Of a stretch of 64,000 nt of DNA, positions 44,663 through 49,096 are shown one piece after another; positions within the stretch are counted from its first letter, which is position 1, and each line of letters begins with the position of its first letter. The DNA lies in contig CALXZM010000002.1 in assembly GCA_944393245.1 (NCBI GenBank), forward strand, positions 124,001-188,000, in the 5' to 3' direction. Position numbers and translations under genes: made by a program. The notes below the pieces were generated by a model that was not told the DNA's origin, did not search any database, and saw only the letters and a list, made by a program, of their open reading frames with translations. This stretch comes from an uncultured Alphaproteobacteria bacterium (GTDB lineage Bacteria; Pseudomonadota; Alphaproteobacteria; Rs-D84).

Positions 44663-46213
44663 ATGACATTTGCAAAGGCTATAAAGTTAAACGTATCTAT
44701 ATTATGCATTGCAATGCTGTGTGGCAGTGCCGCGACGGCTGTGGATGCAGCAACCGGCATAAATTATGGAATTCAGGCGGCGTGGGATAATCCAACCGCC
44801 AATATGGCGGCCGGCAGTTTAAAGCCTGGATATGCACAATTGACCTGGTCCAAGGGCAGTGTTTTACCCATTAAATTACGTAATGGTATGACAACGTTGG
44901 TAACGTTACCAAATGGTGAAAAAATCGCAGATGCCGTTGTTGGAAATGACGGGCTGTTTTCAATTGATGCAACCCAGGGCGGCAGCACGATGTTCATTAC
45001 ACCGGTATCCAGCAACCAGGGTTCGGACACAAATCTGATTGTTACGGGTGAATCTGGAAATCAGTACATATTTTATCTGCGCAGTGAACCGTCTAATTCC
45101 AGTGAAATTACTTATTCCCAGGTTGATGTTTCGTTGGACGGCAATTCAACACTGCCAAATGCAACGGGCGCAACAAATGCGGTCGGCGGTTCTGCATCCA
45201 TATTTAAAAAGGTATCCAACGCATCCAGCACCGTTGGCGTTGACGGCGAAGATTATGGTTGGATAAAATCAATGAAAATTGACCCGTCTGAATTCCGGTT
45301 TGATTTGGATATATTCGTACCAAATCCAGATGATTATGTAATTGCACCCGAACGCGTATGGCGCGACCAGATATTCACATACATTGATTTCGGGGACAAG
45401 GTTATTTCTATGACCCAACGTCCGGTTGTATCCCTGTTGATAGAAGGTGGCGAATCGCCGGTCGGATTCCGTACCGATGGCGAAGATGGACGTCTGTTAA
45501 TAGTAGAGGCCGTTGGTGACATGGTTCTGCGCAGTGGGCAACGTATTGTGTGCATTAAAAAGCGCGAAAAACCGTTCTTGATTGCGGACACTGCATCTGT
45601 TATGGCATTGGCCGAGGCAAACGTTGCACAATCCATAATGTCCGGACAATCACTGAACAATATTGCATATACTGCGGATGTTAACGCAATTAATGCGTCT
45701 GCAAATGGATATACAACAACGCCCATGATGATTGGCAATATGCCGATGGGCACAACAAATGGGGCATATGCACCGGCAGGTTATGTAATACCGGCGGCGA
45801 ATTACGGCACATCAACCGGTGGTGGCAACGGTATTACAATGATTCCAACAGAACGTCTGACCGCGGGTTCGTTCCTGCCACAGTCCAACATTCCATTGAT
45901 TACCAGCAATCAAACCGGTGTTGCAATTGAATTGAAATCCGACACATCGGTTAAGGCCTTGGACGATTATTGGGCAAATCTGTTGGCAAAATTTAGCGGT
46001 GAAGATGGCCAGGGTATTTTGACCCCGTACAAGGATATGGTTTTCTATGCGGTTGACGAACAGGGTGTTGGTGATTTAGGTGCGGATTCGTCTGCGGCGC
46101 GTCTGTATCGGTTGCGCATTGGGCCATTGTCTGACGTTGCCACCGCCCAGGAATTGTGCAATAAACTGTTACAATTCAGCGGCACCAGTTGCAGTGTTGT
46201 GCGCGTGCAATAG
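44663..46213 (+). CDS. virB9: VirB9/TrbG-type T4SS protein with C-terminal SPOR-like domain
   Basis: A 516-residue protein with a signal peptide (cleavage near ATAVDA, residue 30). The conserved VirB9/CagX/TrbG domain is at about 229-299: APERVWRDQIFTYIDFG, ESPVGFRTDGEDGRLLIVEAVGDMVLRSGQ, closing with IVCIKK. A Gly/Asn/Met-rich linker follows. The last 45 residues (ARLYRLRIGPLSDVATAQELCNKLLQFSGTSCSVVRVQ, written as visible strand-helix-strand blocks) look like half a SPOR domain, which binds denuded peptidoglycan. Usual VirB9 is about 280 residues, so this is nearly double. GAAGGAAT lies before the ATG. It forms the outer part of the T4SS core complex. Its stop abuts an S23 cassette. Confidence 0.75.
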   Translation: MTFAKAIKLNVSILCIAMLCGSAATAVDAATGINYGIQAAWDNPTANMAAGSLKPGYAQLTWSKGSVLPIKLRNGMTTLVTLPNGEKIADAVVGNDGLFSIDATQGGSTMFITPVSSNQGSDTNLIVTGESGNQYIFYLRSEPSNSSEITYSQVDVSLDGNSTLPNATGATNAVGGSASIFKKVSNASSTVGVDGEDYGWIKSMKIDPSEFRFDLDIFVPNPDDYVIAPERVWRDQIFTYIDFGDKVISMTQRPVVSLLIEGGESPVGFRTDGEDGRLLIVEAVGDMVLRSGQRIVCIKKREKPFLIADTASVMALAEANVAQSIMSGQSLNNIAYTADVNAINASANGYTTTPMMIGNMPMGTTNGAYAPAGYVIPAANYGTSTGGGNGITMIPTERLTAGSFLPQSNIPLITSNQTGVAIELKSDTSVKALDDYWANLLAKFSGEDGQGILTPYKDMVFYAVDEQGVGDLGADSSAARLYRLRIGPLSDVATAQELCNKLLQFSGTSCSVVRVQ

Positions 46214-46218
46214 TAACT

Positions 46219-46242
46219 GGTTACTCGTAACTTGTTACTCGT
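46219..46242 (+). repeat. Left inverted-repeat end of the S23 cassette
   Basis: GGTTACTCGTAACTTGTTAC and the next 4 nt form a repeat end that matches the reverse complement of the right end (46531-46552) at 18 of 22 positions. It begins 6 nt after the virB9 stop. Confidence 0.65.
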
Positions 46243-46266
46243 GACCATATTCGTGGGGGGATAAAA

Positions 46267-46536
46267 ATGCTTGTGCAAAGTATGGATGTTTATAAAAAGG
46301 CACACATTTTAACACTTGATGTTTACAAATGCACAGGTGGTTTTCCGCACTCAAAAATTTACGGCATGGCATCAAAAATGCGTCGCGCAGCAATATCAAT
46401 AAATTCAAATGAGGTAGAAGGTGACACGCGATTTACGGTATATAAATCGAATATGGCCGAATACCTGATAAATAGCACGCAACAGACGGGGCAAATGCTT
46501 AGTGATATTATAAAAAAGCATACGATTAAAGAGTAA
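46267..46536 (+). CDS. S23-type four-helix-bundle protein (23S rRNA IVS-protein family)
   Basis: An 89-residue protein that matches the four-helix-bundle family first found in 23S rRNA intervening sequences: MDVYKKAHILTLDVYKCTGGFP, SKIYGMASKMRRAAISINSNEVEGDTR, then the last helices. The usual SNIAEG is SNEVEG here, and the C-terminus is short (the family is usually 110-125 residues). GGGGGG lies 6 nt before the ATG. It sits between virB9 and virB10 inside a unit bounded by inverted GTTACTC repeats, its own stop codon being within the right repeat. The function of the family is uncertain; relatives include Avd of diversity-generating retroelements. No reverse transcriptase is nearby. Confidence 0.8.
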   Translation: MLVQSMDVYKKAHILTLDVYKCTGGFPHSKIYGMASKMRRAAISINSNEVEGDTRFTVYKSNMAEYLINSTQQTGQMLSDIIKKHTIKE

Positions 46537-46552
46537 CGAGCAACGAGTAACG
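46531..46552 (+). repeat. Right inverted-repeat end of the S23 cassette
   Basis: GAGTAACGAGCAACGAGTAA and the next 2 nt; the inverse of the left end with 4 mismatches in 22. It ends 3 nt before the virB10 ATG, leaving no room for a usual ribosome site. Confidence 0.65.
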
Positions 46553-46555
46553 TAT

Positions 46556-49096
46556 ATGAACAAATTAAAAAAGCAATTTTCTGATTTACGCAAAAATACG
46601 CCAAAGCATATCCAGTGGCTGTTGTTGGCGGCGGCATTTGTTGTGGTGTTAATATTATTGACCCTGTTGCTGACACGTGGCGAAGAAGAAAAACTGGAAA
46701 ATGCAGATGATGTCGCAATAATATTAAATATTGCCCCAGATACCATTGACTGGGGGGCGGTAATTGTTGGCGAAACAGAAACTGAAACCATTAAAATTTC
46801 AGCCAATCAACCCGTTAAAATTATGGACGTTCGTTTGGGCGACGGGGCCAGCGGAATGGAAAAACCACAACAAAATTGTACCCCCATGGATCACATCGAT
46901 TCTGACATTCCATGTTCCGTTGTTTTGACGTACAAACCAACCACACCCGCCCAGGCACAGGCAGTTGACCTGTACATTGATTGGCGTGGGGCCAGTGAAC
47001 CGGATATTATGAAAAATACTGACCGCGTTGTGTTGGTATTGGGCGCAACGGCCCCTGAAATCCCAGAACCAGAACCCGTGGTAATTCCAGACCCAGAACC
47101 ATTAACACAAATTGAACCAATCGCCCCAGTAACAGAAAATGATACGATTGATTCCATTGCGTCGGAAACAATCGCCACGGTGACGGAACCAACTGCACCG
47201 ACATATCAACAGGAAATTATCAATGATATAGAATCTATTGCACCGTCATCTGGGTTTGCATTTGATACGGCGGAACAATATGCCCCAATAAATAATTATG
47301 ATTCTGAACCAGAATATGTTCGTCCGCCAGAGGCATGTTCTGACTTCGCAATGCCGGCATATAATTTGTCGGGTGTGCAAAGTGGATGGATTCGTCCCAG
47401 TGGTGGTGCGTACTATTTCCACCCTTTTTCTGATACAGAATGCAATAATCCGACCGGCGTATACAATCCTGATAATGGAATTATTACGGATATAAATAAT
47501 CCAGCGCAAAAAATTGGTACGGATGCTGAACACATTGGATACATAACAATACAAAATGGAACATTGCCGCAACTGTCAAATCCAGCAGTAACAAAAACAG
47601 TGAACAAGGCAGTTCAGCTGACCACTGATCAATTAAGGACCATAAACACGCCACAAGACAGCACTAAACTGCCGGGACTGCGTTTGAAACCTGCACCAGA
47701 AAGCGGGGTGATTATTGGCACCAGTGGTAGTGCGGTATTTTCATCCGACCCGTTTGACAGAAAATTTGTTCTGCGTCAATATAAACCAATTCCGGCAACA
47801 ATAGTATCAGAAGTACGCGCCGATCCATCATTGTATGGTTGTATGACAAACGCCCAAGGACAAGTGGAATGCACAGGTCAAACATTGCCCGTACGCGCAA
47901 CCGTTGACCGTAATGTTTATGCGGATGATGGCCGCACCGTTGTAATACCAACCGGTACATTAATGTTGGGATATGTTACCGGTGAATTGCCGGGGCCGTA
48001 TAAATCAATTGGTCGTATGCAAATAAATTGGTATCAATTTATATTGCCCAGTGGCGTTGAGTTTAATTTTAATACCACCAATGCACCGTTTTCCGGCGAT
48101 TCCCAGGGACGTGCCGGCGTACCCGGTCACGGCAGCACCGATTATGTTGAACAACTGGTTATGCCGATGCTGACGGCAATTGTGCCTGCGGCAGTGAACT
48201 TGATTGCACCAATTGCCGACACATTTGTAAATCAAATTGATTTGGACAATAACACCGTTGTACAAAGCGGTACGGTTCGTTCGTCTGAATTAGCCAAGCA
48301 AGAGGTTATTACCGCCTGGAACCAGGTGGCGCAAAAACTGATTGTTGATGCGTTGGATAATACGATTCCACCGTTCTCTATTGCCGCTGGTACACGTATA
48401 ACCGTATATTCACCGATGGATTTGGTTATTACCTGTGGTACTGGCAACAGCAAGGAATGTTCTGTTGAAACGGTTACTGCGGCAACAAAACCTGCCGACA
48501 ACAGCCGCAACCAACGTCAAGATGATTGGCGCACAAATATAAAAGCACTTCCAACAGTAAATTATTCAGATGGTTCGTGGACCGGTCAGGTACGTTCGTT
48601 CAATCTGGATAACTATTGTACTAAAAACACGGATGATGGTATGTGGGACATAGATCCAGATCTGACTGCAAAGGTTATTGCAGAATCCGGATATGATTAC
48701 AGAACCGTGTTGGCATACTGTCAATCACTGAATTATCAGGCAATCAGCAATGCCCAACAAGATGCATTGTATCAAAATCAACAAGAACAATTCCAAGCCA
48801 ATTATGGAACGGGTTCTTCGTTCAATACAGGTACGGGTTTAACCGGCATCAGCGGCAGCCAATCGTATAACGAAGACATATTGGGGCTGACATATGATGA
48901 CAGTGGCGCAATACAAAATCCGTTCGTTGATAATACCACGACAGGGGCCACCACAGAAACTGTCATCACATGCGAAGGTGGCGCACTGCCAGATGCAAAT
49001 GGTTGCTGTCCGGGTGAAATATATACCGATATGGGCGAACAGGGATTCAATTGTTGCCCAGAGGCCGGTGGTGATTGCTTTCCGCCGATACAGTGA
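46556..49096 (+). CDS. virB10: VirB10/TrbI-type T4SS protein, extended
   Basis: An 846-residue protein. A single membrane helix (residues 18-42) is followed by a periplasmic beta-domain (about 50-150, PDTIDWGAVIVGETETETIKISANQPV) that looks Ig/ASH-like, then a Pro/Glu/Thr-rich linker. The TrbI/VirB10 core is about residues 411-625: IPATIVSEVRAD, VRATVDRNVYADDGRTVVIPTGTLMLGYV, RMQINWYQFILPSGVEFNF and GSTDYVEQL. The C-terminal 200 residues end in a Cys-rich tail (CEGGALPDANGCCPGEI, NCCPEAGGDCFPP). VirB10 spans both membranes in the core complex. Canonical VirB10 is about 380-480 residues, so this is twice as long. There is no ribosome site before the ATG at 46556 because the S23 repeat abuts it. 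Confidence 0.78.
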   Translation: MNKLKKQFSDLRKNTPKHIQWLLLAAAFVVVLILLTLLLTRGEEEKLENADDVAIILNIAPDTIDWGAVIVGETETETIKISANQPVKIMDVRLGDGASGMEKPQQNCTPMDHIDSDIPCSVVLTYKPTTPAQAQAVDLYIDWRGASEPDIMKNTDRVVLVLGATAPEIPEPEPVVIPDPEPLTQIEPIAPVTENDTIDSIASETIATVTEPTAPTYQQEIINDIESIAPSSGFAFDTAEQYAPINNYDSEPEYVRPPEACSDFAMPAYNLSGVQSGWIRPSGGAYYFHPFSDTECNNPTGVYNPDNGIITDINNPAQKIGTDAEHIGYITIQNGTLPQLSNPAVTKTVNKAVQLTTDQLRTINTPQDSTKLPGLRLKPAPESGVIIGTSGSAVFSSDPFDRKFVLRQYKPIPATIVSEVRADPSLYGCMTNAQGQVECTGQTLPVRATVDRNVYADDGRTVVIPTGTLMLGYVTGELPGPYKSIGRMQINWYQFILPSGVEFNFNTTNAPFSGDSQGRAGVPGHGSTDYVEQLVMPMLTAIVPAAVNLIAPIADTFVNQIDLDNNTVVQSGTVRSSELAKQEVITAWNQVAQKLIVDALDNTIPPFSIAAGTRITVYSPMDLVITCGTGNSKECSVETVTAATKPADNSRNQRQDDWRTNIKALPTVNYSDGSWTGQVRSFNLDNYCTKNTDDGMWDIDPDLTAKVIAESGYDYRTVLAYCQSLNYQAISNAQQDALYQNQQEQFQANYGTGSSFNTGTGLTGISGSQSYNEDILGLTYDDSGAIQNPFVDNTTTGATTETVITCEGGALPDANGCCPGEIYTDMGEQGFNCCPEAGGDCFPPIQ

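Follow-up and report, generated by a model that had tools for sequence, protein, structure and literature searches.

To our knowledge, the structure of S23/four-helix-bundle proteins has been solved and their function is not known, and we know of no accepted origin for the heptameric repeats that are over-represented in bacterial genomes. S23 ORFs are contained in rRNA intervening sequences, the ends of which pair (PMC4990558). In the literature that we found, members of the S23/rRNA intervening-sequence family (PF05635, TIGR02436; structures 2gsc, 2rld) were either rRNA-associated or of unknown function, and no heptamer arrays were mentioned. The Avd protein of diversity-generating retroelements has been reported to be structurally related to PF05635 (PMC10053308). 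MITEs and REP/RAYT systems resemble the elements studied here in having short non-coding inverted-repeat elements that are related to a coding copy which could act in trans.

Intergenic heptamers have been described apart from these proteins. GGGAATC arrays occur at 186 sites in Xanthomonas campestris and 183 in X. citri; they are intergenic, mostly have four units, form 70-75 inverted pairs (70 in X. campestris) and are unexplained (PMC4692102). The same study described GGGGA(T/C)T arrays in Nostoc. Both repeats resemble the arrays studied here in being intergenic heptamers, most often of approximately four units and often in inverted pairs, but they were described as quadruplex-forming, unassociated with mobile elements and tied to no gene (PMC4692102). 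The TAACTGA repeats of Beggiatoaceae and the STRR heptamers of cyanobacteria are also dispersed and intergenic, but they are mostly direct, not inverted (PMC4679880). We found no literature linking S23 or four-helix-bundle genes to heptamer arrays (only open-licence literature was covered, and the novelty is therefore provisional).

The window (the whole 64,000-nucleotide stretch of DNA that was analysed) carries an S23 gene between virB9 and virB10 (Table 1). As the initial annotation had stated, an S23-type gene of 89 residues fills this gap; the protein scored 47.8 bits against PF05635 and 47 against TIGR02436, above the curated cut-offs (33.8 and 24, respectively). As in rRNA, the flanking ends are complementary. 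It differs from the rRNA cases in that the gene lies in a protein operon, not within a 23S or 16S rRNA gene, its ends are tandem heptamer arrays, and this copy lacks helix 3. Imperfect GTTACTC-rich inverted repeats had been noted at 18 of 22 positions. The repeats were indeed present, but the best inverted arms (46220-46240 and 46531-46551) were complementary at 18 of 21 positions, and the full arrays were longer. Their placement was as described: the left arm begins 6 nt past the virB9 stop codon (TAG, 46211-46213), and the right array, which includes the S23 stop (46534-46536), ends just short of the virB10 start. It was also correct that a separate ribosome site for virB10 is not evident at this locus.

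Table 1. Positions of the S23 cassette and its neighbours in the window
Feature	Position	Strand	Basis and remarks
virB9, upstream neighbour	44663..46213	+	CagX PF03524 6.5e-21; VirB9 TIGR02781; stop abuts left array
Left heptamer array, GTAACTG GTTACTC GTAACTT GTTACTC GTGAC	46213..46245	+	7-nt periodicity score 12; direct and inverted repeats
Putative ribosome site of the S23 ORF, purine-rich GGGGGGA	46255..46261	+	Sequence; similar GTGGGGGAAAA precedes the S23 ATG in G126
S23/four-helix-bundle ORF, ATG start, 89 aa, internally deleted, without the family's helix 3	46267..46536	+	PF05635 1.8e-12; alignment with full-length relative L029 and A4
Right heptamer array, repeating the left one in inverted form and providing the S23 stop codon	46524..46552	-	7-nt periodicity score 14; inverted repeat 18/21
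virB10, downstream neighbour	46556..49096	+	ATG 3 nt past right array; TrbI PF03743 1.6e-14; T4SS VirB10 NF038091

The terminal inverted repeats of the cassette are the inverted heptamer arrays. Profile searches of its contents found PF05635 only, and no recognised transposase or recombinase was encoded. A periodicity scan of the whole 64 kb gave only two 7-nt-periodic segments, and these were the two arrays flanking S23. With at most two mismatches, the two tandem units of GTTACTCGTTACTC matched six times in the window against 0.09 expected (0 of 100 shuffles reached six). The S23 ORF with its flanking inverted arrays is real and far above chance. This copy is the sole S23 gene of the window's own genome (G000).

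We compared the window protein with its full-length relatives. At the homologous virB9-virB10 site of G126 (VirB9 approximately 90% identical), S23 is full-length, with 118 aa, and the heptamer unit is the same as that of the window. Alignment with the closest same-site relative placed a 29-residue in-frame deletion in the window S23. A full-length member of the family was modelled with confidence (mean pLDDT 94); its helices span residues 6-26, 31-57, 61-87 and 93-118, and it is the third of these that is missing from the window protein, which matched only profile positions 2-54 of the 106 in PF05635. A complete four-helix bundle is therefore not met here, but is met by full-length relatives, one of which matched the structure 2gsc at 1.3e-22. 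The polar face of the family is invariant (Q-x2-R-x3-S-x3-N-x2-E and, in addition, a Glu in helix 3); the window S23 has lost that Glu and carries Lys in place of the near-invariant Q40. The initial annotation had called the unit self-contained, which was too generous for so degenerate a copy. The window cassette is probably what is left of a mobile element, in a decayed copy.

The arrays were evaluated at S23 loci sampled from the genus, the family and the class, from 80 genome contigs (many bacterial phyla and one archaeal lineage), from viral contigs and from plasmids. Because the cross-phylum loci were collected with a single conserved peptide pattern, they over-represent one S23 subfamily; the alphaproteobacterial loci represent the other. 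At each locus, we aligned the upstream flank of the domain to the reverse complement of the downstream flank, with a threshold score of at least 14. This score was reached at 95.6% of 90 Alphaproteobacteria loci, 82.5% of the 80 loci on genome contigs and 92% of the 25 on viral contigs; in controls with flanks swapped between loci the share was 1.7-7.1%, and with the interval moved by 800-900 nt it was 1.2-2.6%. Clear inverted arrays were missing from about a sixth of the genome contig loci, in some cases because the flanks were cut, masked or carried direct instead of inverted arrays. An Rfam scan of 19 S23 loci (mostly loci without clear arrays) detected no rRNA near S23.

The period was 7 nt in most S23 loci and 8 nt in a minority, and the arrays had a median of 4.6 units (interquartile range 4.3-5.6). 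The orientation of the arrays was fixed relative to the S23 ORF, the upstream array being G-rich on the coding strand in 90%. The unit itself varied from locus to locus, with the left matching the right (GTTACTC, GTTAGTG, GTACAAA, AACAGAK, GGGACCG, GGGAGTA and many others), and even the twelve S23 genes of a single genome (G159) had mostly different units. S23 genes with inverted arrays are apparently a widespread and hitherto undescribed kind of mobile DNA. Among individual loci, 8-nt instead of 7-nt units were seen at L044, L075, L098 and L105. On the Nostoc edaphicum plasmid pNe_5 (L249), an S23 cassette with GGGAGTA arrays lies in opposite orientation between two ribonucleotide reductase genes.

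We also asked how the unit behaved when the S23 genes were related and the wider flanks were not. In such pairs the array unit was shared in 10/14 cases at a protein identity of at least 70% and in 26/54 at 60-70%; at lower identities it was shared in 68/587 (50-60%) and 45/1123 (30-50%). As an example, the S23 proteins of L024 and L106 are 81% identical and their arrays are alike, with unrelated flanks. Since unit sharing falls with S23 identity, the array units drift between lineages, with the left and right ends staying matched. Because S23 genes are generally array-bounded and related S23 genes at unrelated sites share their unit, gene and arrays together behave as one mobile entity; this lends further support to the mobile cassette that had been suggested from the window alone. 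Part of this sharing at unrelated sites could come from recombination between arrays. Duplicate S23 copies on two Calothrix plasmids were considered as evidence of mobility, and were uninformative, as they lie in a shared plasmid segment with an integrase.

Xanthomonas codiaei and Pseudoxanthomonas have an S23 cassette between carA and carB. When 149 family genomes were queried with the joined carA/carB flanks, many uninterrupted sites were observed. The cassettes start at an identical position in five genomes, directly past CTGATG (or TCCATG) near the end of carA. The tail of CarA is now encoded by the array, and the ATG of S23 overlaps with the stop of carA; in three genomes, a sequence reading as the old carA tail (GAGAAC...TACTGA) stands behind the right array. 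No target-site duplication was visible on comparing carA-carB cassettes with empty sites, and the virB9-virB10 gaps were too diverged for this. The S23 gene and its arrays belong together as a single unit; each S23 lineage has arrays of its own, and defined sites between co-directional genes either carry the unit or lack it. The carA-carB junction (L285-L304, Xanthomonadaceae) was also seen to be an insertion hot spot, with unrelated inserts of approximately 90 to 2000 nt in many species.

To count arrays without an S23 gene across genomes, we used pattern searches and samples of 400 kb. The G159 sample contained 239 arrays of 7-nt period and only 0-5 at other periods. The arrays lying away from S23 numbered 229 in this genome (with 43 adjacent inverted pairs, and a strong enrichment outside long ORFs) and 146 in G174, as compared to 2 in the S23-free congener G125. 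Strong matches to the genome's own S23 arrays were found for 68% of the G159 arrays (2-21% for the sets of other genomes) and for 42% of the G174 arrays (6-22% for other sets). The array-only copies of G174 also matched the twelve S23 units of G159 to some extent (22%), and array families are thus partly common to genera. The array-only and S23 arrays stand to each other as the non-coding and coding copies of a mobile family. What is expected of a MITE-like family, namely many short ORF-less copies sharing their ends with a coding element of the same genome, was met in G159 and G174 as against G125.

If S23 genes are array-bounded, a coding partner is predicted for the GGGAATC repeats of Xanthomonas. 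X. codiaei has a second S23 gene (L253), apparently between accB and accC, with GGGAATC/GGGATTC arrays (GGGATTAGGGAATCGTGATTCGGGATTC and CGAATCCCCAATCCCGAATCCCCAATCCC) on its two sides. Its protein is homologous to XCC0516, the solved pentamer 2gsc (8.8e-41). An S23 gene of the L253 type is likely to be the coding partner of these unexplained repeats.

These observations are best read as mobile elements of a new class, MITE-like derivatives included, although movement of a cassette was never directly observed. We consider it probable that the window feature is a decayed copy of an element with one S23 gene between inverted arrays of approximately four to five units of about 7 nt, with S23 inferred to act on its cognate arrays. 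As inferred in the absence of binding data, the S23 protein would recognise its own heptamer arrays in DNA. It would do so both at the ends of its own element (in cis) and at array-only copies elsewhere (in trans), and may promote the movement or copying of the arrays with host enzymes. S23 lacks any recognised catalytic domain, and we identified no helper enzyme. The solved S23 homologue is a ring of five four-helix bundles, and the match of five subunits to four or five units per array is suggestive only. A stronger proposal is that S23 is itself the mobilising enzyme, its pentamer reading the lineage-specific arrays and cutting, joining or copying DNA through the invariant polar face without a known transposase, recombinase or reverse transcriptase. 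We regard this as possible but unlikely; were it so, much of the heptamer repeat load of bacteria would be its non-autonomous offspring.

The arrays might instead act in RNA, forming a stem in the transcript from which RNase III cuts out the S23 RNA, as in 23S rRNA. Apart from the rRNA precedent, this draws on the window cassette itself, which folds with the arrays as the closing stem (z = -2.8). However, mismatches between left and right arrays were 147 of the G-U compatible and 150 of the A-C type, and RNA pairing is thus not favoured. Array-only copies at many intergenic sites are a further difficulty. Published RT-PCR in X. citri also counts against it: an unannotated 444-bp ORF that separates carA from carB is transcribed together with them, and the products span carA-orf-carB (PMC4619228); from the same position in relatives, we infer that this ORF is an S23 gene. 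The arrays can pair in RNA, but with no G-U preference in their mismatches the excision raised by the initial annotation gained no support, and we think it improbable.

Slightly less probable still is a retroelement in which S23, having the fold of Avd, works with a reverse transcriptase encoded elsewhere. The structural relation to Avd agrees with this, and in a first sample of 18 genomes a reverse transcriptase gene was present in all well-assembled S23-rich genomes. Over 183 family genomes, however, the presence of reverse transcriptase was nearly independent of S23. It was found in approximately 7 of the 18 S23-positive congeners as against 41 of the rest (roughly 30%), and in other genera in 9 of the 18 S23-positive genomes as against 5 of the rest (all counted by hand); several S23-carrying genomes had no reverse transcriptase at all. 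No reverse transcriptase lies in the cassette, and none was linked to the element. Unlike a diversity-generating retroelement, the cassette has neither template/variable repeats nor a reverse transcriptase beside it. A reverse transcriptase acting in trans, suggested by the 18 genomes, was therefore left unsupported by the 183.

Some individual reverse transcriptase loci were also noted. In G159, an Avd-like gene adjoins a reverse transcriptase (L328:2035-4078), which is likely a diversity-generating retroelement. The window's own genome has a Drt2-like antiviral reverse transcriptase on contig C5 (L335:2102-3679), at 383 bits just below the curated cut-off of 390. At L049 and G114:C9:2268-3832, an S23 gene precedes a reverse transcriptase gene by approximately 700 nt, and on one reading its flanks carry direct, not inverted, arrays.

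It is very hard to sustain that the arrays are ordinary simple-sequence repeats made by polymerase slippage, with S23 as a passive neighbour. Array lengths and single units do vary, and slippage has been invoked for heptameric repeats (cited in PMC4692102). But slippage must then account for arrays that are inverted and matched around S23 and not at control positions, that keep a fixed orientation relative to its ORF, and that have units tracking S23 relatedness across sites. The near absence of such arrays from the S23-free congener also speaks against it.

We also examined the virB9-virB10 junction in relatives. VirB9 was found in 140 of 151 congeners and S23 genes in 18. According to the S23 coordinates, S23 adjoins virB9 in only three (G000, G126 and G048) of the approximately 140 congeners with virB9. 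The gap was read directly at 30 loci from the VirB9 search and at the S23 loci of G048 and G126; most gaps were 17-50 nt, and those outside the three genomes were empty or carried array scars. Cassette-free virB9-virB10 operons, which the initial annotation had advised looking for, were found at the other loci read, and GTTACTC-type arrays were present at further sites in G000. The mobile cassette would have been refuted had all relatives carried the gene with no repeats elsewhere; this did not occur, and the proposal is supported. The position in the operon, the common strand and the own ribosome site might point to a stable accessory virB gene that serves in secretion. This is scarcely credible for a gene missing from nearly all virB9-bearing congeners, of a family that also sits in carAB, accBC and nrd loci elsewhere and internally deleted in the window, and as a general rule it is refuted by the empty sites.

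The junctions with residual arrays were then read individually. In G060, which has the closest VirB9 (92-93%), the 41-nt gap is made up of the left and right arrays, joined directly and without an ORF. In G041, G132 and G122 there is only a left array, running into virB10, and in two of them the purine-rich region of the element start follows. Judged by their sequence, these residual arrays are scars of a lost cassette. Taking the cassette as a mobile element, we infer that it entered the virB9-virB10 junction in the ancestor of a subclade, after which virB10 would have become translated behind it. The element may now be in the course of being lost, through internal deletion in the window copy and through loss of the ORF, leaving array scars, in sister lineages.

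The association joins S23 and the heptamers, with the protein gene as the coding core and the heptamers as its ends and gene-less derivatives. It gives a direct hypothesis for the function of S23 (recognition and movement of its own array), it predicts which repeat goes with which protein, and it makes the origin of the repeats testable in common laboratory bacteria. On this model, almost all abundant inverted heptamer families would have a cognate S23 gene, intact or decayed, in their own species or a near relative, among them GGGAATC of X. campestris, GGGGA(T/C)T of Nostoc and possibly TAACTGA of Beggiatoaceae. The association also shows how an element with no promoter in evidence can persist within essential operons (carAB, accBC, nrd, virB), its stop and start codons being adapted to the neighbouring genes.

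The element differs from MITEs and REP/RAYT systems in that S23 is not a known transposase fold, the ends are tandem heptamers and no target duplication is visible. A REP/RAYT system was rejected, as no Y1 (HUH) transposase was present in any of 18 genomes. Outside the cassette, every GTTACTC array of G000 borders a REP cluster (TGTCATTGCGAGC...GCAATCCAG), for example at L305, L308, L309, L326 and L317 (around position 1500). These REP-bordering arrays are degenerate, and several of them directly follow the T-run of an intrinsic terminator.
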